Shown here in pieces: positions 5,240-20,258 of a stretch of DNA of 24,530 nucleotides. The notes below the pieces were generated by a model. That model was not told where the DNA came from. It did no database searches and saw only the letters and a list, made by a program, of their open reading frames with translations. Positions within the stretch are counted from its first letter, which is position 1. Every line of letters starts with the position of its first letter. Source of the stretch: a virus. The position numbers were made by a program, and so were the translations under genes. Where the stretch lies: IMG/VR virus record IMGVR_UViG_3300030388_000049, positions 1 through 24,530 of that record. One strand, given 5' to 3'.

Positions 5240-5944
5240 TCATGCGGCTATGTCTTGCCAGTTTGGATTTTGAGCTGTATTTATATTACCCCAATTTGGA
5301 GTTTGTGCATCACTAATATCTTGCCAGTTGGGGACTTGGTTGGGGACTATAACATCCCATATGTTAATAGTTCCTACTGCTCCCGTGCCTACAACGCCCG
5401 TTACAGCAACATTTGCACCAGTGGTGACAACTACAGAACCTAAAGCTGTAGTTCCTACGACACCCGTTACAGTAACATTTACATCAGTGGTGGCAACTAC
5501 AGAACCTAAAGCTGTAGTCCCTACAACGCCCGTTACAGCAACATTTGCACCAGTGGTAACGATTACAGAACCTAAAGCTGTGGTCCCTACAACGCCCGTT
5601 ACAGCAACATTTACATCAGTGGTGGCGACTACAGAACCTAAAGCTGTAGTTCCTACGACACCCGTTACAGCAACATCTGCACCAGCGGTAACAATTACAG
5701 AACCTAAAGCTGTAGTTCCTACGACACCCGTTACAGCAACATCTGCACCAGTGGTAACGATTACAGAATTTATTGCACCAGTAGCAGCTAAACCTGATGG
5801 AAAAACATTTGCACCAGTGGTGACGACTGCGTTACCGACTGCCCCAGTCATACCGGGGACTAGGACATTCTGACCCCAACTACTATCGCCCCAGCCTTGG
5901 GTAGAAGACCCCCAGCCTTGAAAGACAACGACAGCATTAGCCAT
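5240..5944 (-). CDS. Repetitive virion-associated protein, 22-residue tandem repeats and PNW motifs
   Basis: A 234-aa protein built almost wholly of repeats. The N-terminus has GWG/SWG motifs (about 10-25). Then come degenerate copies and five clear 22-residue units VVGTTALGSV(I/V)..., probably one or two beta-strands each. The C-terminus has three PNW(Q/G)(D/N)I motifs. It has no signal peptide. PNWQ-type C-termini are familiar from hypothetical proteins of marine phages beside the tail fibre. I infer a structural or receptor-facing role from the beta-repeat character and position. Its ATG overlaps the stop of the upstream gene by one base (TAATG), and it ends 11 nt before the tail fibre. 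The repeat coding is also open on the opposite strand, which I take as an artefact of the 66-nt period. Confidence 0.8.
   Translation of the reverse strand: MANAVVVFQGWGSSTQGWGDSSWGQNVLVPGMTGAVGNAVVTTGANVFPSGLAATGAINSVIVTTGADVAVTGVVGTTALGSVIVTAGADVAVTGVVGTTALGSVVATTDVNVAVTGVVGTTALGSVIVTTGANVAVTGVVGTTALGSVVATTDVNVTVTGVVGTTALGSVVVTTGANVAVTGVVGTGAVGTINIWDVIVPNQVPNWQDISDAQTPNWGNINTAQNPNWQDIAA
5373..5768 (-). repeat. 66-bp in-frame tandem repeat array
   Basis: CCTAAAGCTGT recurs at 5439, 5505, 5571, 5637 and 5703, exactly 66 nt apart, with a degenerate unit on each side. Units alternate between two versions, one with GCACCAGTGGT and one with ACATCAGTGGTGGC, which gives a second-order 132-bp period. 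Confidence 0.95.
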
Positions 5945-6385: not shown

Positions 6386-7015
6386 TTAAGTTACCGCAAC
6401 TTTATACTGACCTGAACGGAAAGCATCTTCGCGTAGTTTACCGTCACCCAAATTCTTGAGTAACCCTATAGCCTGTACATATAACCGTTCGTACATGGCT
6501 ACCATATCAGGCTCACCTTTCAAGAACCGGATAGCCTCAATTAACGCACCATTCAATAGTGCACTGTCAAATTCATCCCCAAGCCACGTCGTACCAGCCG
6601 TCACAATCGTAGTAGGGTAGTATCCGTAATGCAGCTCCACAGCGTAATTACTGTCTGGCGTTGGGCCAACAATAAACGCGTCATCGTTAAAGTACGCATA
6701 GTGTGCAGGTAACCCTGTGGAGGTGGCCTTCGGGTATGCTTCGCGGATGAAATTAACGTCTTTATTAATTAAAAACGAGTAATTGCCGTCACCATCAATA
6801 ATCGCTAAAGAATACGACCATAAAAAGTCCGTGGGGATGTCTAAATATGTATTGTTAGCTGTTACTACCCCAGTTACATTTCTACGCAACGCAGGGATCT
6901 GAACCGTATTGTAGATCTTCTGCTCGGCCTGTTCGGTAAACATAGCAAGTTGGTCATCTGTAAAAGTTGTTTCACAGATGTCTTGGATGTCCGCTTTTAG
7001 CTGCGTGTAGTTCAT
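6386..7015 (-). CDS. Head-tail adaptor / tail-completion-type protein, 209 aa
   Basis: Begins MNYTQLKADIQDICETTFTD and has FTEQAEQKIYNTVQIPALRR, YLDIPTDFLWSYSLAI and, near the C-terminus, an amphipathic helix (ALLNGALIEAIRFLKGEPDM, then YERLYVQAIGLL). This arrangement (N-terminal helices with AE-x-x-IY, a beta core with PTDFL, C-terminal helices) is the one I associate with small adaptor or tube-like proteins of marine phages placed near the portal-tail joint. The assignment to a connector ring is by pattern and position and has not been tested. No ribosome-binding site is visible, and the ATG lies 3 nt after the stop of the 57-aa gene, so re-initiation is likely. Confidence 0.75.
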   Translation of the reverse strand: MNYTQLKADIQDICETTFTDDQLAMFTEQAEQKIYNTVQIPALRRNVTGVVTANNTYLDIPTDFLWSYSLAIIDGDGNYSFLINKDVNFIREAYPKATSTGLPAHYAYFNDDAFIVGPTPDSNYAVELHYGYYPTTIVTAGTTWLGDEFDSALLNGALIEAIRFLKGEPDMVAMYERLYVQAIGLLKNLGDGKLREDAFRSGQYKVAVT

Positions 7016-7018
7016 GGT

Positions 7019-7192
7019 TTAGGCCATTGGCCCTCGGCACATACGGCCCTTAGTCGCTGCGCCGTACCCACGCATCATAATCCCAGAAGTCTTAACGCCT
7101 TTCATGCTTGGCTTAGGGCCGTAAGACTGGACGCCTTTATTCTTTTGAACTTTGACTTCTTCCATCCCAAAAACGTTTTTAGGGTTGTACAT
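7019..7192 (-). CDS. Small basic protein, 57 aa, tagged C-terminus
   Basis: A short gene found by hand translation: MYNPKNVFGMEEVKVQKNKG, then a Lys/Gly-rich stretch ending RGYGAATKGRMCRGPMA. It has a good ribosome-binding site (GTAGGAGTAATACT then ATG) and fits neatly between two genes with 3-10 nt gaps. The C-terminal RG-x-G-x-A-x-KG is a version of the tail motif seen in the proteins at 9105, 9698 and 10081, though without the GG-x-V start of the motif. No fold or enzyme is recognisable. It is probably a virion-associated or assembly factor of the same small basic family. Confidence 0.75.
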   Translation of the reverse strand: MYNPKNVFGMEEVKVQKNKGVQSYGPKPSMKGVKTSGIMMRGYGAATKGRMCRGPMA

Positions 7193-7202
7193 AGTATTAC
7201 TC

Positions 7203-7565
7203 CTACGTCGTTACTGTAACGGTTCCTAATAGCCCACTAGCTACTAAGTTGTTAGGGGTCAAGTTAAACGGGTCATCTCCGCCGCCTACTGGGTACCAAC
7301 CCCACTGTATGTTTCTACTACTAAAGTCTCCTGATACCCCAAGACTTGTATCAGGTCTTGGATTCCTAATCGCTTGCGGATCGTTTACCGGAAAATCCCC
7401 TAGTTTAAGCTGGGGTTGACCCGGATTCCAACACTCAGAACACGCTTTTATCTGCGTATCCCTACCTTTAACCATTAAACTTTTTAACGTCTTTAGTTTA
7501 AACTGGAACCCACACACATCGCACATGGCGATGGCTTTTTTGTCTGAAGCAAATGCGGTGCCCAT
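7203..7565 (-). CDS. Zinc-ribbon protein of the head-tail gene block, 120 aa
   Basis: Has C15-D-V-C18 and C42-S-E-C45 knuckles with FQFKLKTLKSLMVKGRDTQI between them, a clear zinc-ribbon spacing. PGQPQLKLGDFPVNDPQA and IRNPRPD follow, then a C-terminus rich in W, G and T. The combination MCDVCGF...C-x-x-CW...HPQ/QPQL...DPQAxRxPRPD is familiar as a conserved hypothetical in marine phages next to adaptor genes. Its function is unknown; a structural zinc site in a neck or tail component is my inference. It begins 2 nt after the stop of the 308-aa adaptor gene. Confidence 0.8.
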   Translation of the reverse strand: MGTAFASDKKAIAMCDVCGFQFKLKTLKSLMVKGRDTQIKACSECWNPGQPQLKLGDFPVNDPQAIRNPRPDTSLGVSGDFSSRNIQWGWYPVGGGDDPFNLTPNNLVASGLLGTVTVTT

Positions 7566-7567
7566 TG

Positions 7568-8494
7568 CTAGACTCTACCCATACGAGGCACGAACCTAAT
7601 CGGGGCTTTCTCCCTATCTTCTTCAGCAGCCAGTGCAAATTGCTCATCATATACGGCTTTTAACATTGGCACCCTGTCAACAAGCTCGGGTACTTTCATA
7701 GCAATGTAATAGGCCAGACCCGCAACTAGACACGGGAAAAACCTGAAATTCATGTCAGATGTCTCAATACCGCCGCCAGCGTCTTGCACACGTCGCATAC
7801 GCCAGTAAACAATCTGATAGCTTTGAACATTGTCCGGTACAGGCCACACGGTAACCGCAGGGACTTGTTCTCCAAAAATAGGTATTGCTATACCACCAAC
7901 CGTATGAGTAGCTGCTGTAGTCCCTTGTTGGCCCCTAAAGCAATTCTGTAACACGTTACCTTCAATAAACCCGTAGTTGATGATCTCGTTTTGTATCTTT
8001 ATAAACCCCGCAGGAGGTAAACCCGCTACACCACTAAGCGTGATTGTCGTGGCAGTGCTCGTTGCAGTAGCCCCTAACGTAATGCCGGTTGGGTACGTCT
8101 GCCCACTATCCCTATGTATAACAACCTGTATAGGGCGCGACTGCGTAATTTTGTTGGGGATGGACGCGTAAGTACTAATGCTAATCCGACTTAATGTTAG
8201 GTCAGCTTGCGTAGATGAATTATGTGCGCCTGTACGAACGCTCTGCTCTAAAAGGTCGATGGTGTCATCAGGTAACGCGTAGGTTGCTTGGCCTTGTACT
8301 AGATCAAGGACACCCTGCTCAATCGTCCACATGTTAATGCCACGATTCTGCCACTCAATCGTCATGAGGTTCATAGAACGGCGTGCAGTCTGGAGATCAT
8401 ACCCTGACCGTAACTCGCGTCCTGCGCGTTCCCACGCCTCTTCAGCGATGTCTGTAAACGGCATATTGAATGCTGTTGTACCTGATGTAGCCAT
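7568..8494 (-). CDS. Head-tail adaptor, P22 gp4-like N-terminus with inserted beta domain, 308 aa
   Basis: The first about 80 residues (DIAEEAWERAGRELRSGYDL, then ARRSMNLMTIEWQNRGINMW) have the helix-loop-helix pattern of gp4-type adaptors that plug onto the portal: A/L-x-x-AG, L-N-x-M-x-x-EW, G-x-x-x-W. A beta insertion follows (about 110-220) with TTITLSGVAGLPPAGFIKIQ, then NEIINYGF and CFRGQQGTTAATH, a module of the form edge-strand, G-x-I-x-I-x-x-E-I-I-x-Y, RG-x-x-GT-x-x-x-H. C-terminal helices contain AGLAYYIAMKVPEL. It would join the portal to the tail machinery. The gp4 link is a pattern judgement. Its ATG overlaps the stop of the 59-aa gene (TAATG). Confidence 0.75.
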   Translation of the reverse strand: MATSGTTAFNMPFTDIAEEAWERAGRELRSGYDLQTARRSMNLMTIEWQNRGINMWTIEQGVLDLVQGQATYALPDDTIDLLEQSVRTGAHNSSTQADLTLSRISISTYASIPNKITQSRPIQVVIHRDSGQTYPTGITLGATATSTATTITLSGVAGLPPAGFIKIQNEIINYGFIEGNVLQNCFRGQQGTTAATHTVGGIAIPIFGEQVPAVTVWPVPDNVQSYQIVYWRMRRVQDAGGGIETSDMNFRFFPCLVAGLAYYIAMKVPELVDRVPMLKAVYDEQFALAAEEDREKAPIRFVPRMGRV

Positions 8495-8673
8495 TATGTA
8501 TTCCCGCTGTTCTTAGCTTTGGCTTTGGCTTTTGCAGAAAGATCTTTCATATGAAATAACTTTACACTAGTTTTGGTGTGAGTCTTGTTGGTGTGTAGGG
8601 TGCCATCACTCATCTTATGGCTTGAACCTCTGTGCTCAGTGCCGTCTCTTTTGTAGTGTTTTACACCTTTCAT
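8494..8673 (-). CDS. Small basic protein, 59 aa (MKGVKHYKRDG family)
   Basis: Hand-translated: begins MKGVKHYKRDGTEHRGSSHK, then MSDGTLHTNKTHTKTS, then FHMKDLSAKAKAKAKNS. It is strongly basic and His-rich. Related sequences with HKM-x-x-GTLH-x-x-x-THT are common small hypotheticals in marine phages. The ribosome-binding site AAGGACATAAGCT lies before the ATG, and the stop overlaps the adaptor start. The alternating K/A C-terminus is probably disordered or helical. Function unknown; perhaps nucleic-acid contact inside the virion, judged by charge only. Confidence 0.75.
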   Translation of the reverse strand: MKGVKHYKRDGTEHRGSSHKMSDGTLHTNKTHTKTSVKLFHMKDLSAKAKAKAKNSGNT

Positions 8674-8684
8674 AGCTTATGTCC

Positions 8685-8954
8685 TTATCTTTTAGCGGCT
8701 GTTACTCGTTTGGGCTTACCCGCTGGTTGCCCTAGTTTCCTCTTTTCAGCTACTTTCTTCTTCTTCTCAGCACTAGTCATCTCAGAAGATGTTTTAGGTG
8801 TCTTAGCAGATATCCGCTTTGTAGGTCTACAGTACGGCGTACCACGCTTATCACCCTTCTTTCTACCACAGGCTTTACCCGTCTTAACGTCTTTCCAGTC
8901 TTCTTTAAACCAACGTTTTAACGATGCGCCTTTCGCGGTTTTTCTAACTGCCAC
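8685..8954 (-). CDS. DUF5872-like basic protein, 89 aa, GTG start
   Basis: Reads MAVRKTAKGASLKRWFKEDW, then KDVKTGKACGRKKGDKRGTP, YCRPTKRISAKTP, and a lysine-rich tail GKPKRVTAAKR. The K-x-W-F-x-EDW-x-D...CGR...R/K-x-x-P-x-C motif order is that of the DUF5872 family, frequent in ocean phages. I choose GTG at 8954 because family members start close to V-R-K-T-A-K. The longer in-frame extension to 9014 has no family resemblance and overlaps most of the gene upstream. The GTG overlaps the stop of that 52-aa gene by 11 nt in another frame. The C-x-R...P-x-C pair could bind metal. No function known. Confidence 0.78.
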   Translation of the reverse strand: MAVRKTAKGASLKRWFKEDWKDVKTGKACGRKKGDKRGTPYCRPTKRISAKTPKTSSEMTSAEKKKKVAEKRKLGQPAGKPKRVTAAKR

Positions 8955-9102
8955 TCTTGTTACCCCAGTTCTTAGCGCCTTTCTTACGACACTTCGCAAT
9001 AGCACCTGAAGCATAGGCGGAAGGGAAGACCTTATAGCGAGACTTAACCTTGCTATAACACGCGTCTTTAACCGAACCGCCTTTTTTATAGTAACAGCGC
9101 AT
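8944..9102 (-). CDS. Small basic protein, 52 aa (KVFPSAYASGA family)
   Basis: Hand-translated: MRCYYKKGGSVKDACYSKVK, then SRYKVFPSAYASGAIAKCRK and KGAKNWGNKSGS. The core KVFPSAYASGAIAKCRKKGA is one of the most recognisable short motifs of marine phage genomes, usually beside DUF5872. Ribosome-binding site GAGGTAACA before ATG. Two internal cysteines (C15, C38) besides C3. The start YYKKGGSV matches the start YYKAGGSV of the DUF6321-like gene at 10491-10802, so these small proteins share modules at both ends. Role unknown; a virion or assembly component is likely from context. Confidence 0.82.
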   Translation of the reverse strand: MRCYYKKGGSVKDACYSKVKSRYKVFPSAYASGAIAKCRKKGAKNWGNKSGS

Positions 9103-9104
9103 TG

Positions 9105-9695
9105 TTACCTCATTCTAGCCGGACGGGTACCTTTAGTAGCAATACCGGTACCACGGACACTTCCACCTGCAGCATACTTAGCCACGTCGCCGCCTTTCTT
9201 CATAGCAGGTTTTTTACGTGTCTTACCTTTTTGTTTATTAAGGTAATCCCGTAAAGACAACCCAGAAGCCTCTAACTCTTCTTTAGTAACGGCGGCTTTC
9301 TTCCTACCGTCTTTACCAATAAACGTATCAGAACCTTTTTTCTTAGCCGCAGCGATTGACCGGGGGTTCTTCTCCGCAACCATGCCCTTACCGGTGGCAG
9401 ATTTCCTACGCATCATATCTGCTGGGCCAGTCCTAGCTTTACCGTCCATACCTGTTTTAGGTGCTGCAGCAGTTCTTTTAGGTGCTGGAACCGTAGCTTT
9501 CTTAGCTTTTAACTCTTGGCTTTCGTTAGGTCTACGTTTACCAGTAACTTTAGTCCCTAGATCTTTTACTTTTTTACCCGACGCTAACTCTTCTGGGGCA
9601 TCATCTTTGCGAAAAGATCTAGTCCTACTAGCTTTACGTTTAACTTTGGGCTTCTTTTTATCTTTCTTACTCCTAAACATGTCAAACATACCCAT
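9105..9695 (-). CDS. Lysine-rich protein with SGLSLRDYL motif and tagged C-terminus, 196 aa
   Basis: Extremely basic, low-complexity protein: MGMFDMFRSKKDKKKPKVKR at the start, alternating K/A/P segments, then ELEASGLSLRDYLNKQKG (about 138-155), RKKPAMKKGG, and a C-terminus SVRGTGIATKGTRPARMR. The SGLSLRDYL segment and the tail motif both recur in the next gene upstream (9698-10048), so the two are paralogues. Ribosome-binding site AAAGGAGCGTAGTC, which overlaps the end of the upstream gene. It is probably disordered and DNA-binding, or an internal head/scaffold-like protein. This is inferred from composition, as no enzyme motif is visible. Confidence 0.75.
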   Translation of the reverse strand: MGMFDMFRSKKDKKKPKVKRKASRTRSFRKDDAPEELASGKKVKDLGTKVTGKRRPNESQELKAKKATVPAPKRTAAAPKTGMDGKARTGPADMMRRKSATGKGMVAEKNPRSIAAAKKKGSDTFIGKDGRKKAAVTKEELEASGLSLRDYLNKQKGKTRKKPAMKKGGDVAKYAAGGSVRGTGIATKGTRPARMR

Positions 9696-9697
9696 GA

Positions 9698-10048
9698 CTA
9701 CGCTCCTTTCATCGTTACCATTTTAGCAGCACGAGTACCTTTGGTAGCGCAACCAGAACCACGGACTTTGCCGCCTTTCTTCATACCGCGTGGCTTACCT
9801 TGCCCCATAATTTCTTCTGCTGTTTTACCTTTCCCAATAAAACCGGGTTTTTTACGTGGCTTACCTTTTCGAAGATTTTTATCGAGGTAGTCTCGTAAAG
9901 ACAGCCCAGAATCTTCTAGTTCTTTATTTGAGGGTAGCGAATCGTAATCATAATCATATTCAAGTGAAAATTTTGAATTGGCAAGCTTACTCTCTATGGT
10001 ATCAGAATCTTTTTTCTTATCTTTTAACGCTTGGCTTTTATTACCCAT
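9698..10048 (-). CDS. Paralogue of the SGLSLRDYL lysine-rich protein, 116 aa
   Basis: Begins MGNKSQALKDKKKDSDTIES. After an acidic/tyrosine stretch (YDYDYDS) it has ELEDSGLSLRDYLDKNLRKG, PRKKPGF, and the C-terminal tag GGKVRGSGCATKGTRAAKM, followed by a short extension VTMKGA instead of ending in KMR. Compared with its 196-aa neighbour it lacks the long basic middle. The last codons double as the ribosome-binding site of that neighbour. Ribosome-binding site AAAGGAGCTTAGTC. Tandem duplication followed by divergence explains the pair. No known function. Confidence 0.75.
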   Translation of the reverse strand: MGNKSQALKDKKKDSDTIESKLANSKFSLEYDYDYDSLPSNKELEDSGLSLRDYLDKNLRKGKPRKKPGFIGKGKTAEEIMGQGKPRGMKKGGKVRGSGCATKGTRAAKMVTMKGA

Positions 10049-10050
10049 GA

Positions 10051-10077
10051 CTAAGCTCCTTTATAGTAACAGCGCAT
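10051..10077 (-). other. Eight-codon micro-ORF, apparent remnant of an MRCYYK-type gene start
   Basis: Between two basic-protein genes the minus strand reads M-R-C-Y-Y-K-G-A-stop. The 19 nt TTTATAGTAACAGCGCATT (plus-strand order) here are identical to those at the start of the 52-aa gene (9086-9103 on the plus strand). After the shared start codons the two diverge. It looks like a duplicated 5' end left behind by rearrangement, now serving as the leader of the 116-aa gene. Confidence 0.5.
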
Positions 10078-10080
10078 TAG

Positions 10081-10491
10081 CTATCGCATTTTACAAGGCT
10101 TCACGCCCTTCTTTGCTATGCCAGCACCGCGGACTTTACCACCGTTATTCATGCGGGGCATAGCCTTATCACCAGCAAACTTACGTTTGCCCATAGCTTT
10201 TTCCATACCTTCGCTTTCGTTACGACGGGCTTGCATGCCTTGCATTGCGGGGCCATTGCGTGCACCCATAGAGTCGTCCAAACGAGCATTATCGCCTTGC
10301 TTACCCATCTTGCTCATGGCTACATCTTTCATAGACATACCACCTTGCTGGTATTTCTTCATTCCTTTCATCTTATCAGCCTTTTCATAGTCTTTGCCTA
10401 CTGACTGAGGTACCCCAGTTTTTTCGGCAAATTTAGGGTTATTGGCTACCGCAGCCATAAAATCTTGTTGTTTCTTGCTTTTGCTAGGCAT
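10081..10491 (-). CDS. DUF3008-like N-terminus basic protein with tagged C-terminus, 136 aa
   Basis: Starts MPSKSKKQQDFMAAVANNPK, the MP-x-KSKKQQ opening of DUF3008-type small phage proteins. It continues FAEKTGVPQSVGKDY, a Met/Gly/Lys-rich middle (QQGGMSMKDVAMSKMGKQG) and a C-terminal tag MNNGGKVRGAGIAKKGVKPC then KMR. I choose ATG at 10491 over the GTG four codons earlier because the family begins MP-x-K and because this ATG overlaps the upstream stop as TGATG, which favours coupled translation. Unusually rich in methionine. Function unknown; the shared tag links it to the proteins at 9105 and 9698. Confidence 0.78.
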   Translation of the reverse strand: MPSKSKKQQDFMAAVANNPKFAEKTGVPQSVGKDYEKADKMKGMKKYQQGGMSMKDVAMSKMGKQGDNARLDDSMGARNGPAMQGMQARRNESEGMEKAMGKRKFAGDKAMPRMNNGGKVRGAGIAKKGVKPCKMR

Positions 10492-10802
10492 CAGCAATTC
10501 CACTTCCGCAAGCTCTTGTTGATCCTGCTATTAGGATCTTTTGCTGTCTTAGAGCTGGTGTTACGTTTCTTCATACCTTCCATACGAGCACAGAAAGACT
10601 TGCGACGTTTGGCGGCTTTGGAACCTTTTTTCAGCTTGCTTGGCTTCGTAGTAACAGCAGTTTTTAACTTGCTGCCGGGGTTAGCCTTACGATAACTAGC
10701 AACGCCTTTTTTGTTCAAACCGCCAGATTCGCTCTTACCTTCCTTACGCGTCCACGCAGGAGACTTAGAAACACTGCCCCCTGCTTTATAGTAGGCGTGC
10801 AT
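10491..10802 (-). CDS. DUF6321-like basic protein, 103 aa
   Basis: Begins MHAYYKAGGSVSKSPAWTRK, then EGKSESGGLNKKGVASYRKA, NPGSKLKTAV, RRKSFCARMEGMKKRN and ends SRINKSLRKWNC. The order SPAWTRKEGK, GGLN-x-x-G-x-x-S, R-x-SFCARM-x-GMK, LRKWNC is that of DUF6321, a short family of phages. An in-frame TTG at 10814 would add four residues. The ATG at 10802 is preferred because it lies 5 nt after the stop of the upstream gene and begins the YYK-x-GGSV module shared with the 52-aa protein. No catalytic function known. The conserved W, C and basic residues suggest nucleic-acid or head-protein contact. Confidence 0.83.
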   Translation of the reverse strand: MHAYYKAGGSVSKSPAWTRKEGKSESGGLNKKGVASYRKANPGSKLKTAVTTKPSKLKKGSKAAKRRKSFCARMEGMKKRNTSSKTAKDPNSRINKSLRKWNC

Positions 10803-11993: not shown

Positions 11994-12902
11994 TTATGCG
12001 CCGGGTGAACCATAAATCCCGAGGGGATCAGATACACCAAACGAGTAACGCTCACGAGCTTTGTAACGACTGTTGCCAGTATCGAAATCAGCATCCATAG
12101 ACGTTGACATCGGTGAACGGACAAAGTGCTTCAAGCCATTAGGCACGTCAGTCATTAAGAACCACGCATCTGGATCTGTCAGATAGTGATTGACTGAATA
12201 CCCTTCAGGGATGTTACCGTTGTTTTTGATTGCGTTAAGGTCGTTATCCGCAGTACCAACGCGTCCTTCTGTCTCTAGCAAACGAGTTACTACAAACTGG
12301 AGGTTGGGTGGGATAATTAACTTACGAGGCTTTGCAGCAATCAACAAGCTACGCTCATCAGTCCAGCCAGCAATCTGAATAATAGCCGCTTCCAGAGAAG
12401 TTTCATTAAGGTCAGCCGCAACAGCAGGACGGTTTGAGTTAGTGCCACCAGAAACAAGTGGGTGAGCCGTTGAACACAACACAACCCCGTCACCGTAAGT
12501 GGTGCCAGCAGCAAACGCGTTGTTCAAGATGGTAGCACCTTTAACTTGCTTGGTGTACGCCATAGCGCGAGCGAGAGCTTTCGTATAACGAGCAGACAGT
12601 GAGTCATACAAGTTATCTTCGATGGCTTCTTCAGTTATACTGAACCCCATCGCAATTGTCTCATGCGTGTAACGTGCACTCCATGCTTCTTGTGCATTGT
12701 CATATTCGATGGCAGAACCTTCGCCTTTGACAGGTGCAGCTTGGAAGCCAGACAGCTTCGTTTCTTCTTCAAAAGAACGGTCTGAAGATTCTGTTTCAAA
12801 AATCTCCTTCGTTTCTTCCCCATACTTAGCATACTCTAAACCAAAAAGAGCATTAAGACCGGGAAGTAGTTCTTTTAATAACTGGGCTCTTGAAATAGCC
12901 AT
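11994..12902 (-). CDS. Major capsid protein, Mu gpT-like HK97-fold type
   Basis: A 302-aa head shell protein. It begins MAISRAQLLKELLPGLNALF, has the charged region EIFETESSDRSFEEETKLSG and the conserved VKGEGSAIEYDNAQEAW, then ARYTHETIAMGFSITEEAIE. Later come a loop with LCSTAHPLVSGGTNSNRP, KLIIPPNLQFVVTRLLETEG, and a C-terminus with RYSFGVSDPLGIYGSPGA. This is the pattern annotated as Mu-like major head subunit gpT in many marine phages. There is no N-terminal delta-domain extension, in keeping with the separate scaffold gene upstream. Strong ribosome-binding site (AAGGAGAGTAGATC), and a strong terminator follows directly, both fitting very high expression. Confidence 0.9.
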   Translation of the reverse strand: MAISRAQLLKELLPGLNALFGLEYAKYGEETKEIFETESSDRSFEEETKLSGFQAAPVKGEGSAIEYDNAQEAWSARYTHETIAMGFSITEEAIEDNLYDSLSARYTKALARAMAYTKQVKGATILNNAFAAGTTYGDGVVLCSTAHPLVSGGTNSNRPAVAADLNETSLEAAIIQIAGWTDERSLLIAAKPRKLIIPPNLQFVVTRLLETEGRVGTADNDLNAIKNNGNIPEGYSVNHYLTDPDAWFLMTDVPNGLKHFVRSPMSTSMDADFDTGNSRYKARERYSFGVSDPLGIYGSPGA

Positions 12903-15017: not shown

Positions 15018-15410
15018 TTATGCTCGCGTGATACCACGGGGGTCTGCCACAATAGCTTCAATAGAGTCATCGTTCATCAAACGATACTCCACCCCACCAA
15101 CTTTAAACCGAGTGCCCGTGTTCATACGGAACATCACATAGTCACCCGTCTTACACCACGGGCCTGACGGGAACCGATCTTCGTCAGAATAGGCTTGCTC
15201 ACCCATATCCAACACAAGGCCGATAATCGACATAATGTGTTCTTGGTTCATCGTTGTATTAGATTTAAGCAGTCCGGTCTCCCCGAACGTCTCTTCTACT
15301 TGCGGTAACGCGACTAGCACCCTATACCCTACAGGTTTCGGTAACTGCGCCTCGATCTCTTCCGGTGTCAACATATCTTTCGGTTCTAACATTTCTATTG
15401 CTTCACCCAT
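15018..15410 (-). CDS. GroES-like co-chaperonin, 130 aa
   Basis: Contains PVGYRVLVALPQVEETFGET, then TGLLKSN, HIMSIIGLVLDMGEQAY, FPSGPWCKTGDYVMFRMNTG and TRFKVGGVEYRLMNDDSIEA, followed by VADPRGITRA. The order (a strand with RVLV-x-LP, a G-ETGLL mobile-loop-like segment, a -GxV-x-x-MG turn, KTGDYV-x-F and a final E-x-x-x-x-NDD-x-I) is that of the GroES/Cpn10 fold, as in the phage-encoded GroES-like proteins of pelagic phages. It probably helps the host GroEL fold capsid or other virion proteins. It has an about 25-residue N-terminal extension compared with bacterial GroES. It overlaps the 64-aa gene by 8 nt and precedes the scaffold by 10 nt. Confidence 0.82.
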   Translation of the reverse strand: MGEAIEMLEPKDMLTPEEIEAQLPKPVGYRVLVALPQVEETFGETGLLKSNTTMNQEHIMSIIGLVLDMGEQAYSDEDRFPSGPWCKTGDYVMFRMNTGTRFKVGGVEYRLMNDDSIEAIVADPRGITRA

Positions 15411-15597
15411 CGTACTCTTCCATATTGCGTGAGAGGTCTTCTACATAATTGATACAGGTTTCGAGACCCCGAACCATACCTGTAACCTCCTTGTACTGAG
15501 CGAAGTCTTTAGCTCCACCCCCTCCAAGAAACTGTAGTGCAGAGGATTTATCTTCCTCTAGCTTATCTTTAAGCACGTCAAAAATGGTTTTAGCCAT
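15403..15597 (-). CDS. Small conserved protein between portal and co-chaperonin, 64 aa
   Basis: MAKTIFDVLKDKLEEDKSSA, then LQFLGGGGAKDFAQYKEVTG, MVRGLETCINYVEDLSRNME. Helix, glycine linker, helix; acidic. Similar short proteins sit at this place in other marine phage genomes, but I know no function. Its ATG overlaps the portal stop (TAATG at 15597) and its 3' end overlaps the co-chaperonin start by 8 nt, so all three are co-translated. A head-assembly cofactor is a guess from position. Confidence 0.75.
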   Translation of the reverse strand: MAKTIFDVLKDKLEEDKSSALQFLGGGGAKDFAQYKEVTGMVRGLETCINYVEDLSRNMEEYDG

Positions 15598-18074
15598 TAC
15601 TCACCCTTATCTTGCTGCTCTATAAGTCGCATGAGCTCCACATCTAACTTGTTTTCATCAGTACGTTTGCTGATAGCTATCTTGATCCCCTCTTTCTGGG
15701 CCTCAATAGCAAGTTCTTGTTGGTCGAGCTTAAGTTGTTCCGCGTCCAAGGTTGCATCAATCGCATCTTTCTGCGACTTGCGTTCTTGTTCTGATTGGCG
15801 GATCTGAATATCAGCCGCGTCTTTCTGCATCTTGCGTTGCATGTCCTGCTGTTTAATTTGCAGTTCCGCTTGTTGCATCTGCACGATAGGATCTTGCGCT
15901 TGTTGCTGCGCTTCCGTCTGTGCTTGTTGCTGCTGGTGGTTTTGAGTAAGTTGGGTACCTGCTTGGGCCATTAATTGCGCCAAGGATATTTCGATACTCT
16001 CGGGGAGTTCTTCGTTAGGTGCAGGGAGCGGTGCTCCAAGTTTTTCTTCCATCTGCTTACGGTAATTAAACCCTAAGTGTTGCGCTAAATGCGCTTGCAG
16101 AGCAGCCATAATGGCTTGTCCCTGTGGGTTCTGGCCGATCATCTGAGCGACCATAGGATCTTGCATAAACGCTTGGTGCGTCGTTATATGTGCGTCGTGA
16201 TCTTGGTGGATAAACGCTTTCAACGGTTTCCCGTTCAACGCATCCATATTCTCACTAACGGGGTCAGTAGGTTTGAGATCGTCCTGAGTCGGAACTAACT
16301 TATCCGCATTCTTAACGCCCAATACCTCAATCATCTGCCGGTGTAGCTGTGGCAGGTCATATATCTGTGGGGCAGACTGGGCCATCTGGAGTACCGCTTG
16401 GTACTGTACAACCCGCTGCGCCATCGTAGAGCTGTTAGGATCACTGACGGGGATCACGTCCACCATCATATAGTCCGCTACCCTAGCACTAACTTCTCCA
16501 CGCATGGGGATATAGTCGTACTCAGTGGGCGCATACTCAGACATAATCGTCTTGAGCATCTTAAACTCTTGCTTCATAGCGTAATGAACACGCGCTTGTA
16601 CTGCAGCCATTGGCTTCAACGTACGTTCTAGCAGTGCCAGCGTCGTTCCTACTGGAGCATTAGCCGACATGTCAGAGATGTTCATATCACTGATAGCCCC
16701 TAACCGACGACCCTCAGTGGTGATCTGGTTAAGCAGCGCAAGCAATGTCTGGCTTGGCTCTTTGTACGGAAGTGGCATGATGTTGTCACGGATACTACCA
16801 GACGGCACATCCACGTCCTTCCACTCTCCCGGTTCAATCGGCGTATCATCACCCTTGATCCGTAAGCCACGAGACTTCAACCCGCCGGGAAGGTTAGACA
16901 GCGTACCTGCATCAACCAACTGACGAATGAGTGAGGTACCTGCGCGAGCATATCCACCGATGATATGAATCAAACCAAGACCGTAGAACCCAAACCCCGG
17001 CACATAAACGTAGTGCACAAAGTGTTGACGTTTCAACATCAACGGATCTTCTTCGCTCCAGTTCCGTCGGATCGCCAGAATATTGTTCGTACCACGTTCA
17101 ATCGTAATAACGTACGGTTTTGCAATATCATCTTCATCTTCGTCGATGCCCTCAATAATAAGGTCGGCATGGACTTCGTATATCGCATATCGATCATCGT
17201 CAGTAATAGAGTAGCCACCCTCTTCGGCCTTCCTCTTCTCGATGTCTGTATGGAACGGTTGTGGATCACCGAGGTCTACCTCTTTATAGAACCCCATAGC
17301 CTGAAGTTTCTTCAGCTCGTTCTTGGTCTTCCGCATGACGTGGGTGACACGCTCTGCAGTCTCAATGTGGGACGCGCCGTAGGGTACAATAACGTCCTCT
17401 GCAGGGACATAAATAGCAACCTGCCGACCTAGGTTAGGGTCGAAATACACCTTCTTAAACGCAGACCCCGCTAGTCCTAGGCTATACAACATCCGTTCAT
17501 GCTCTGGCCGGTACTCAACCATGCGCTCAGTTAGCTCGTAGTTCATATCCGCTTTTACTCTTTCAGCGGCTTCAGCTTTCTCGGGCGTTTCTGCTCCTAG
17601 GATCTTTACACGTACGGGGCCAGCGGCTGGGAAAGTCTCGCTCATCGTCTCTGCTTGGAAACGTATCGCGGCTTCGGCCAGTACAGTAGAGTAAACCCCG
17701 CAGGCACCTTCCCACGGGTCTGTGCGCTCTTCGTACTTGAACCCTAATACGTCCAGTCCTTTGACAAACGTATCAGCCCAATCTTTTCGGCTTTCGGTAT
17801 CTGCATCGATCAGCCCAATTAAATCCTGTGCAAGTTCCTGTAGATCATTGTCATCTAACGCTTCAGCAAGGTTGGCATCAAACCCCATTAGGTCTGCTTC
17901 GTTTGCATCAGGGATTAACGTAATCTCCATGCTGCCATCAGACAACGTAACCATCTCAGGATCGACAATCTCGATCTCTAACTGTGCACCCATCATATCG
18001 CCGTCCATCATCTCGCCTTCGAGCAGATCATCGATACCTTCTGGTGCCGCGTACAAACCTTTTTCAATAGCCAT
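15597..18074 (-). CDS. Portal protein, P22-like, 825 aa
   Basis: Forms the dodecameric ring at the unique vertex through which DNA enters and leaves. The body has ESRKDWADTFVKGLDVLGFK, then WEGACGVYSTVLAEAAIRFQ, ETMSETFPAAGPVRVKILG, YELTERMVEYRPEHERMLYS, FYGLGLIHIIGGYARAGTSL, NLPGGLKSRGLRIKGDDTPI and SAPQIYDLPQLHRQMIEVLG. These are the hallmarks of the P22-type portal family in marine phages. The C-terminal about 135 residues are Gln-rich and coiled (QNHQQQQAQTEAQQQAQDPI), like the P22 portal barrel. Its length is at the long end of the range, as in P22 (725 aa). It lies 11 nt downstream of the terminase large subunit. Confidence 0.92.
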   Translation of the reverse strand: MAIEKGLYAAPEGIDDLLEGEMMDGDMMGAQLEIEIVDPEMVTLSDGSMEITLIPDANEADLMGFDANLAEALDDNDLQELAQDLIGLIDADTESRKDWADTFVKGLDVLGFKYEERTDPWEGACGVYSTVLAEAAIRFQAETMSETFPAAGPVRVKILGAETPEKAEAAERVKADMNYELTERMVEYRPEHERMLYSLGLAGSAFKKVYFDPNLGRQVAIYVPAEDVIVPYGASHIETAERVTHVMRKTKNELKKLQAMGFYKEVDLGDPQPFHTDIEKRKAEEGGYSITDDDRYAIYEVHADLIIEGIDEDEDDIAKPYVITIERGTNNILAIRRNWSEEDPLMLKRQHFVHYVYVPGFGFYGLGLIHIIGGYARAGTSLIRQLVDAGTLSNLPGGLKSRGLRIKGDDTPIEPGEWKDVDVPSGSIRDNIMPLPYKEPSQTLLALLNQITTEGRRLGAISDMNISDMSANAPVGTTLALLERTLKPMAAVQARVHYAMKQEFKMLKTIMSEYAPTEYDYIPMRGEVSARVADYMMVDVIPVSDPNSSTMAQRVVQYQAVLQMAQSAPQIYDLPQLHRQMIEVLGVKNADKLVPTQDDLKPTDPVSENMDALNGKPLKAFIHQDHDAHITTHQAFMQDPMVAQMIGQNPQGQAIMAALQAHLAQHLGFNYRKQMEEKLGAPLPAPNEELPESIEISLAQLMAQAGTQLTQNHQQQQAQTEAQQQAQDPIVQMQQAELQIKQQDMQRKMQKDAADIQIRQSEQERKSQKDAIDATLDAEQLKLDQQELAIEAQKEGIKIAISKRTDENKLDVELMRLIEQQDKGE

Positions 18075-18085
18075 AATTTATACTC

Positions 18086-19639
18086 TTAGTAATACCCGCC
18101 ACGTCGTTGTTTAAAGTAACGTATGTCATCAGGTTCATCAGTTGGTAGGCGTATGAATCCACCTTGCCTAAAACGCATTAGTGCCATGACTGTCGAATCC
18201 ACTAGGTCATCATGGCTCATAAACGGGAATCCAGCAATCTCTTCAACTAACTCTTCCGCCCAGCGAGTTTCGGGCACCCACACTATACCTGATGCTACAA
18301 TATCTGCTACCGAGTTTAGACGTGCTAGTTTATCACCAGATCCTCTGTGAGGGGTATATTCCTGCACTGGCAATCCCATACGACGCATCTCTTGGTAGAT
18401 CGCTACGCCCGAGCTTTTCTTCTCCACAATAAACGCATCAGGTTCCCAGTCAGCATACTCTTCCATTGCCAACTCTTTTAACTCAGGAAACTCCAACCGC
18501 TTCTTAATACTGTTCAACAAGATGATGTTGTACGCTTCTATCTCTTCATTGAAGAAAACACCCCACGTAGTGAGCGCCGTAAAGTCAGCACGGTTGTGCT
18601 TCTCCGCAGCAGAGTCTAACGACATGATAATGTATTCGCACTTGGGCGGATCTTCCTTCGTCCAGATACTCCACCAATCCCTTTTAATCAGGGCAGCTTC
18701 TTCTGCCGTTGGTTCCTGCTGGTACTGTGCATTCCACTGGAAGGCTGGCATCGATGCCTTAGTCCGTAGCAAAGCGTCTAAGTCAAAGAACTCAGGCCAC
18801 AGTGGTTTCTGTATAGGTTTACCCGTCTCCTTATCGTCCACCTCTAATATGGCGGGGAACTCAATCACCTCAAACTCATCCGCTCTGTCGTTCTGGCCCA
18901 TATCCCGCACTACACGACCTGTCAGGTCATCCATGTGCCAACGAGTCTGGATAATCGCTACCCGCCCTCCGGGCATAAGACGCGTACGCGCCCCAAACGT
19001 GTACCACTCATAAGCCTTCTCAAACACAGAGAAGTTACCGTTAATAACATCTTGTTCAGAGTGCGGATCATCTACTAGGAGCAGGTCAGCACCACGTCCA
19101 GCAAGGGCAGAACCAACCCCACAAGCGTAGTATTCGCCCCCTACACTGGTGTTCCACCGACCCGCAGACTTGGAATCAGAGGCTAGTCTTACAGTCGGAA
19201 ACACCGACCTATAGCCGTCAGAATTGATTAAATTACGTACTTTACGCCCAAAATCTACCGCTAAATCAGTAGTATGCGACACCATCATGACTTTTTTATT
19301 AGGATTACGTCCTAAGTACCATGCTGGGTAGAAGATAGACACTAACTGGGACTTACCGTGGCGTGGGGGTATGTTTACGCATACCCGATCTTTGTCCCCA
19401 CCCTCAATTGCCATGAGCATATCAGCCAATATGCGGTGGTGCTTACCCACAATGAACTCAGGCATCATTGCCTTGCAGAATTCTATAAGGTCATCGTACG
19501 CCAGCTTACTTCTTTTACGTGTACTTAGTTCCTCGACCAGTTTATCAATCTCAACGACTTCATCTTGGGTATAATCGTCAAGGTTATCCAACATCACTTG
19601 GATTTCACCCTCAGTAAAGTCAAATGCGACCTCACTCAT
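18086..19639 (-). CDS. terL: Terminase large subunit (DNA-packaging ATPase/nuclease)
   Basis: Motor that pumps DNA into the prohead and cuts the concatemer. Counting from the upstream ATG at 19654: Walker A PPRHGKS at about 96-102, Walker B LLLVDD at about 191-196, coupling motif IIQTRWH at about 233-239. The RNase-H-like nuclease has D346 (IMSLDSAAEK), E410 (FIVEKKSSG) and the D pair near 481 (MSHDDLVDS). All key residues are present and the length is normal. I prefer the ATG at 19639 (MSEVAFDFTE), which overlaps the small-subunit stop in the usual coupled way. The ATG at 19654 would add five residues and is also possible. The C-terminus YFKQRRGGYY is a typical portal-docking basic tail. Confidence 0.95.
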   Translation of the reverse strand: MSEVAFDFTEGEIQVMLDNLDDYTQDEVVEIDKLVEELSTRKRSKLAYDDLIEFCKAMMPEFIVGKHHRILADMLMAIEGGDKDRVCVNIPPRHGKSQLVSIFYPAWYLGRNPNKKVMMVSHTTDLAVDFGRKVRNLINSDGYRSVFPTVRLASDSKSAGRWNTSVGGEYYACGVGSALAGRGADLLLVDDPHSEQDVINGNFSVFEKAYEWYTFGARTRLMPGGRVAIIQTRWHMDDLTGRVVRDMGQNDRADEFEVIEFPAILEVDDKETGKPIQKPLWPEFFDLDALLRTKASMPAFQWNAQYQQEPTAEEAALIKRDWWSIWTKEDPPKCEYIIMSLDSAAEKHNRADFTALTTWGVFFNEEIEAYNIILLNSIKKRLEFPELKELAMEEYADWEPDAFIVEKKSSGVAIYQEMRRMGLPVQEYTPHRGSGDKLARLNSVADIVASGIVWVPETRWAEELVEEIAGFPFMSHDDLVDSTVMALMRFRQGGFIRLPTDEPDDIRYFKQRRGGYY

Positions 19640-20258
19640 CGTCGTACTCTTCATCTACCTCGGGTTTCACTTCTTTTAGCCCGAGTTCCGCGTCAATATC
19701 GATTACTTCGCCTTCAAATACGATAGGGGCACCCAGTTCTTCGGGCGGATTGACCAACTTCTCTAGCTTCTGACGCAGCTTGGCACGTAGGTCGTCCGTA
19801 GACTGGTGCGTTATAGTGACCTCTGACTTCTCCGCAAACAAACTAACGTCTGAAATCTTGCCCAACAGCTCTAGGGCACGGATTCTTACCCGTGGGTCTG
19901 GGTTCTCTGACTCTAACAGGAGCTTATTAGTGACTAGGTGGCGTATCTGGGTAGCACTTTCAGCTACAGACTGTCCAAACTCTTGCAGGATACTGTTAGT
20001 AAGTACTAATGAAGCAGGTGTTAGCTTAGAAGAGCGGGTAACTGATAGTGTCTTAGAGATTTTTTCTGGGTTTTCTGCGTAATCTATTGCTATACCAGCC
20101 GCTACGTCTTTGTCTTCTTTGTTTGGGGTGATGTCTAGCCCGTGTTCTGCCAATAACAAAGCAGTGTTGCACGCAGCTTCCGCACGAACTTTAAGATCTA
20201 GGTACGGCATGTCTGCTGATATGGGTATACCGACTTCTGGCTGAAGCATCACTGTCAT
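19632..20258 (-). CDS. terS: Terminase small subunit-like protein
   Basis: About 208 aa: MTVMLQPEVGIPISADMPYL, LKVRAEAACNTALLLAEHGL, LTPASLVLTNSILQEFGQSV and VRIRALELLGKISDVSLFAE, followed by KSEVTITHQSTDDLRAKLRQ. An acidic tail (VDEEYDDE) completes it. The RALELLGKI-x-DV-x-LF-x-EK-x-EVT motif and the place directly before terL identify it as the DNA-recognition small subunit of a marine phage terminase. I use the ATG at 20258; a longer frame begins at a TTG (20291) and a shorter one at ATG 20249. No strong ribosome-binding site is visible. It is the first gene of the leftward late region. Confidence 0.8.
   Translation of the reverse strand: MTVMLQPEVGIPISADMPYLDLKVRAEAACNTALLLAEHGLDITPNKEDKDVAAGIAIDYAENPEKISKTLSVTRSSKLTPASLVLTNSILQEFGQSVAESATQIRHLVTNKLLLESENPDPRVRIRALELLGKISDVSLFAEKSEVTITHQSTDDLRAKLRQKLEKLVNPPEELGAPIVFEGEVIDIDAELGLKEVKPEVDEEYDDE

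Follow-up and report, generated by a model that had tools for sequence, protein, structure and literature searches.

What causes small basic proteins of otherwise unrelated sequence to end in the same short peptide? The question is raised by a viral DNA stretch of 24,530 nt (24.5 kb; IMG/VR record IMGVR_UViG_3300030388_000049, G000 in the analysis), here called the window, in which four proteins encoded on the minus strand carry the motif RGxGxAxKG 7-12 residues ahead of their stop codon. They are the 9105, 9698 and 10081 proteins, named after the lower coordinate of their genes, and a protein of 57 amino acids encoded at 7019-7192. The peptide is a real tag, anchored at the C-terminus, common to unrelated protein bodies, concordant within a genome and retained when bodies are exchanged. 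The reading that it serves as a virion-incorporation (cargo) tag for proteins that face the DNA or are ejected stands at an even chance.

The motifs reported in a preliminary description of this DNA are all found where it had placed them, including the N-terminus common to two further proteins, YYKKGGSV (8944-9102) and YYKAGGSV (10491-10802), and the segment SGLSLRDYL of the 9105 and 9698 proteins. Once back-translated, the core RGxGxAxKG matches the window at 4 places, always on the minus strand and in these genes, for 0 copies expected from dinucleotide shuffles. Composition-preserving shuffles of eight proteins yield 0 copies near the C-terminus in 20,000 trials, versus the 4 observed.

The position of the tag is fixed well beyond the window. 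Three scans of IMG/VR provided loci selected by the motif and not by its position, the first one using back-translated GGxVRGxGxAxKG against 2.9 million contigs (at least 120 stretches). Among the matches listed, 110 of 132 end exactly 7 residues before the stop codon and 131 of 132 lie at most 19 residues before it. The FKGV-ending flavour of the second scan has exactly one residue before the stop in 123 of the 123 matches listed; flavour D (DGxAxxGKTKG) of the third is found at most 20 residues from the end in 128 of the 152 listed, 70 of them with exactly three. In a tag-blind sample of 80 relatives picked by their capsid protein the loose core appears 62 times, in 61 cases within 20 residues of the C-terminus and always on the coding strand. 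Random occurrence lacking such a preference had been set beforehand as the point that speaks against the tag, and the preference holds. IMG/VR loci are mostly fragments, so that tags per genome are lower bounds; total tag abundance in this database is large and the matches listed are likewise a lower bound. A tblastn search of the bare tags versus phage records gave no match, probably due to low-complexity masking, and is hence not evidence of absence.

Genomes of bacteria and archaea (257 Gb) contain 42 matches to the same GGxVRGxGxAxKG motif. Their distances to the next stop are scattered and about 40 are chance-like, while the two that resemble the phage tag (L219 and L228) are probably viral contigs in metagenome bins.

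The bodies that precede the C-terminal tag are highly diverse: 360 of them group in 108 sequence clusters. A net positive charge is found in 99% of tagged proteins, with a median of +16 per 100 amino acids. Many bodies are rich in Lys/Gly repeats, and non-repetitive ones (a transglycosylase, DUF6321) are tagged too. Their number, size and identity vary freely among close relatives. The DUF6321 body lacks the C-terminal tag in the window and carries it in another locus (L090). A tagged protein of L110 has a transglycosylase SLT domain (PF01464, 1.4e-18) and also matches phrog_342, annotated as "internal virion protein with endolysin domain". A dedicated search showed SLT transglycosylase combined with the tag in L518, L519 (77%) and L521 (64%), which makes at least three distinct genomes; in L520 and L522 the same middle part and tag are kept and the enzyme domain is gone, and L524 has a different N-terminus. 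The preliminary description had proposed that the peptide sorts or binds the unrelated bodies that carry it. This exchange of domains under a constant tag, together with C-terminal anchoring, body diversity and concordance within genomes, is strong support for such a signal.

This concordance is seen at the variable tag positions, whose identity between different bodies is 0.636 within a locus versus 0.30 between loci (0 of 500 permutations). Codons at identical residues are the same in 0.535 of cases within a genome versus 0.406 in the control, and codons differ among the tags of the window itself; recent DNA copying may thus contribute to tag similarity, the conserved thing being the peptide. 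Flavours A, C or D change 6-15 times on structural-gene trees versus about 30-80 times with shuffled labels, and flavour thus follows the phylogeny of the structural genes. Concordance and flavour phylogeny fit a common virion receptor evolving with the genome.

A different function, also put forward in the preliminary description, is that of a nucleic-acid-binding tail: the tag, rich in RG and Lys, would bind DNA (or RNA) directly, and the proteins would cover the genome once packaged, or serve as nucleoid proteins, without any protein partner. The strong basicity of the tagged proteins, their Lys/Gly-repeat bodies and the Arg, Lys and Gly residues of the tag itself are in line with such a role. 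Composition, however, would fix neither the distance to the stop codon (7 residues in 110/132, 1 in 123/123) nor the last residues (FKGVF, CKMR, RGPMA). In flavour D one tag position is taken by aspartate, and a generic DNA binder would hardly have a flavour specific to each genome. What is fixed is the position and the end residues and not the composition, which makes a plain nucleic-acid-binding tail less likely.

Gene order places the tagged proteins among structural genes. As transcribed, the minus strand of the window codes for terminase (18086-19654), portal (15597-18074), a GroES-like protein, a putative scaffold, the major capsid protein (MCP; 11994..12902, phrog_371) and two capsid-side proteins. 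The small basic proteins follow (10802 down to 8494), the tagged ones being located 3' of the capsid gene, and then come neck/adaptor-type proteins (7568-8494, 7203-7565, 7019-7192, 6386-7015) and the tail spike. The basic island is bordered by a neck/adaptor-type structural protein (7568..8494); the putative head-tail adaptor (6386..7015, phrog_2941) has a weak match to adaptor gp12. The eight small basic proteins have isoelectric points (pI) of 9.9-11.4 and a summed net charge of +156, while the other structural proteins of the window are mostly acidic or neutral and none is strongly basic. Of the 30 loci in the window's clade that extend 5 kb or more beyond the capsid gene, 27 have tagged genes downstream of it; upstream of it such genes are found in 0 of 52 loci. 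Hidden Markov models, themselves made from these loci, detect at least one window-like structural gene in 119/120 loci of the first scan, 108/111 of the second and 116/119 of the third (343/350 together), the first count resting on a slightly wider structural gene list than the other two. Within the sampling, the tag is therefore restricted to a single virion lineage. The tag-bearing phages form one lineage of short-tailed, mostly aquatic phages.

Such a location between capsid and adaptor genes might also be expected if the tagged proteins were ordinary minor structural parts, for example at outer neck or capsid sites, and the tag a strand inserting in a repeated capsid or neck site. The type-B protein family, found in 26 of 30 clade loci and bearing the most conserved tag flavour, would suit this role. 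The free variation in number, size and bodies among close relatives does not, nor does the presence of an enzyme among the tagged proteins, and the clade of Roseobacter phage CRP-902 manages without them. A structural hook of this kind is rather improbable.

It is more doubtful still that the peptide is read in the infected cell, as a signal for membrane, degradation or another host target carried by effectors or lysis-associated proteins. Flavour tracks clades, and hence probably hosts, and one tagged protein is a cell-wall enzyme. The genes nevertheless lie within the late structural module, comparable C-terminal peptides are absent from the cellular genomes scanned (257 Gb), and a hydrophobic N-terminus is found in only 8 of 225 tagged proteins. 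As for chance or a low-complexity artefact, in which Lys/Gly-rich proteins like many of these bodies repeatedly match the motif, its probability is negligible: the C-terminal counts (131/132, 123/123 and 61/62 in the tag-blind sample) refute it, shuffles give 0, the distance to the stop is fixed and non-repetitive bodies are tagged.

Returning to virion incorporation, a connection to particles comes from the 10081 protein. Its structure model features a confident three-helix domain at approximately residues 5-50, the remainder including the tag being predicted as disordered. Over its 40-residue core this domain shares 77% identity with the small protein 165.1 of phiKZ, and the N-terminal body of the 10081 protein is homologous to the N-termini of GAP32_317 and CBB gp322 (CBB_322). 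The latter was identified by mass spectrometry in purified CBB virions with 30 unique peptides and 43.6% coverage (PMC5259590); gene numbering was verified with CBB_318, which is IF-3 in the paper and in the record alike. Judged by this homology, particles can contain the type of N-terminal domain found in the 10081 protein. This 40-residue SKKQQDFM domain is common to these podoviruses and to phiKZ-like and Rak2-like jumbo phages (L357 6010-6186, which is phiKZ 165.1; L358 4001-6535; L361 3001-5544), and in some of them it makes up the N-terminal part of a virion protein that is abundant. The preliminary description had suggested entry into the head or virion; the support for this is only indirect and comes from gene position, basicity, a tagged lytic transglycosylase and one body homologous to a virion protein. 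Cleavage near the GG, which the same description had raised, finds no support. The GG is incomplete in about one third of the tags, the residues that follow it are the most conserved, and no separate prohead protease was identified among the 10 structural proteins of the window scanned with PHROGs, in which the MCP overlaps capsid/protease families weakly. Proteolysis at this site was considered and is not favoured.

A possible way for virion incorporation to operate is an open cargo slot, in which a C-terminal address peptide co-evolves with one virion receptor and loads exchangeable basic proteins and enzymes; a gain of about 20 codons would then be enough to turn the product of any gene into cargo of the virion. 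This proposal is tentative, with a probability somewhat short of even. In the broader cargo-tag reading, the genes that these phages have between those for capsid and tail code for a varying assortment of small, very basic and for the most part disordered proteins, and at times for enzymes. Every such protein joins a body of its own, through a flexible Lys/Gly linker, to one common short end peptide. This peptide would dock on a component common to all these phages (the inner capsid face, the scaffold or the portal-adaptor region), and the cargo would be built into the head while DNA is being packaged or earlier. Basic cargo would then sit against the DNA inside the head and part of the cargo, such as the transglycosylase, might be ejected at infection.

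Several results weigh against such a role. In the CRP-902 clade the neck and capsid genes are the same, and there are 0 tags in 41 loci, with 0.9 basic genes per 5 kb versus 4.5 in the window's clade; the system is therefore dispensable for the architecture. CBB_322 has its own large C-terminal body, and its virion data cover the common N-domain only and not a tagged protein. A limited open-access literature search found no tagged protein detected in a virion by mass spectrometry. Flavour changes mapped on the MCP, scaffold, portal and neck trees single out no partner gene, several being about equal, and vertical descent with the host lineage would yield a similar flavour pattern.

All genes of the island and its surroundings described here are on the minus strand. 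The 9105 gene (9105..9695) codes for a 196-amino acid basic protein (net +39, pI 10.9) with an SGLSLRDYLN module (SGLSLRDYL at 9240..9266) and the tag GGSVRGTGIATKGTRPARMR (9108..9167; core 9130-9155). The 116-amino acid basic protein of gene 9698 (9698..10048, net +13) combines the SGLSLRDYL module (9884..9910) with the tag GGKVRGSGCATKGTRAAKMVTMKGA (9701..9775; core 9738-9763). The basic 10081 protein (10081..10503, net +17), whose true start is probably the ATG at 10491, is composed of the SKKQQDFMAAVANNPKFA three-helix N-terminal domain (phrog_16759), a disordered middle and the tag GGKVRGAGIAKKGVKPCKMR (10084..10143; core 10106-10131). The 57-amino acid protein (7019..7192) belongs to the type-B tag family and adjoins the putative adaptor gene; its end reads MRGYGAATKGRMCRGPMA and its tag KTSGIMMRGYGAATKGRMCRGPMA (7022..7093; core 7047-7072). 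This protein and the 9105 protein have no known family in Pfam or PHROGs, and a PDB sequence search with the tag and with the 57-amino acid protein gave no match at E 10.

Further island members carry an N-terminal tag or none. The DUF6321 (PF19846) protein (10491..10802, net +26; 66.9 bits for a Pfam gathering score of 28.5) has YYKAGGSV at 10771-10793, and the 52-amino acid RYKVFPSAYASGAIAKCRKKGAKNWG protein (8944..9102, net +13), related to phrog_727, has YYKKGGSV at 9070-9093. The latter gene overlaps in a different frame the open reading frame of the DUF5872 (PF19197) protein (8685..9014, net +29; 56.7 bits for a gathering score of 27.5), leaving the start of the DUF5872 protein uncertain; its homologue in L064 bears the N-terminal tag. 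A 59-amino acid basic protein (8494..8673, net +10) is without tag. No significant match came from fold searches with the models of the 10081 and DUF6321 proteins. DUF6321 is present in 504 phage records, chiefly of Synechococcus and Prochlorococcus phages, without assigned function; the limited open-access search found no paper on it and one on DUF5872.

The N-terminal tag MRxYYKxGG[STK]V lies within the first 10 residues in 39 of 46 proteins and on at least six kinds of body. SGLSLRDYLN was found in 15 proteins, every one ending in the C-terminal tag or a close variant. The tag motif itself occurs at the very N-terminus (MAGRGMGAATRGGGAV..GP) only in sister clades (L490, L497, L499, L501, L505, L507, L513, L514 and phage DSL-LC04), the DSL-LC04 gene (L005 23016-23243) being directly ahead of an adaptor gene. 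Tandem copies (RGGGIALRGKGVALRGGGIALRG) are found in proteins of L420 (6489-7525) and L492 (2163-3159).

Judged by the capsid protein, the cultured phages closest to the window are Planktothrix phage Pag-Yong1, Pelagibacter phages HTVC023P and HTVC027P, phage DSL-LC04 and Roseobacter phages CRP-901/902. Tagged proteins of such relatives are gp32 and gp51 of HTVC023P and UMO75986.1 of Pag-Yong1. For the terms searched, the HTVC023P-type genome paper has no mention of proteins of this kind. The GroES-like co-chaperonin of the head gene module (15018-15410, phrog_3188) is annotated in every cultured relative whose head region was read. A 120-amino acid protein with two CxxC pairs (zinc-ribbon-like), coded between two neck genes (7203-7565), is present in 29 of 30 clade loci, and a 234-amino acid protein (5240-5944) has repeated VTGVVGTTALGSV units and is nearly free of Lys and Arg.

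If the tag does direct virion incorporation, it would account for the many small basic genes that lack annotation in aquatic phages and provide a sequence rule for predicting virion cargo of uncultured ones. It would also offer a short C-terminal address, testable for loading proteins into phage heads, and what such phages deliver with their DNA would be directly testable in cultured HTVC023P (Pelagibacter), Pag-Yong1 (Planktothrix) and DSL-LC04.

Known systems resemble the tagged proteins in different respects. The cyanomyovirus DUF6321, DUF5872 and phrog_727 proteins are function-unassigned families to which the bodies of the 10491 and 8685 proteins belong, the tags being added in the window's lineage. 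In RG-rich nucleic-acid-binding tails composition matters and position does not; here the stop distance and last residues are fixed. The tagged SLT transglycosylase protein matching phrog_342 recalls ejection or internal virion proteins of podoviruses (T7 gp16 type, P22 gp7/16/20). We know of no common terminal tag in the latter, and here the tag sits on many small proteins. Encapsulin cargo-loading peptides are C-terminal, Gly-containing and carried by unrelated cargo via a flexible linker, and are read by an HK97-fold shell. They are the closer positional analogue, since here too a C-terminal peptide follows a flexible linker on unrelated cargo; their consensus looks unlike RGxGxAxKG, and the present system is that of a phage.

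In phage T4 the capsid targeting sequence (CTS), ten N-terminal residues, is enough for head entry, foreign proteins included, and the internal proteins that carry it are small and basic; each has about 300 copies, and many are ejected (PMC9026906). As in IPI-III and Alt of T4, a short terminal peptide is common here to differing small basic proteins. The T4 signal, however, is N-terminal and removed by protease gp21. Even if it works alike, the tag is not a member of the CTS family, because it is mostly C-terminal (131/132, 123/123) and unrelated in sequence, with no protease identified among the 10 structural proteins scanned. A natural analogue to the sufficiency of the CTS on foreign proteins is the transglycosylase that bears the tag.

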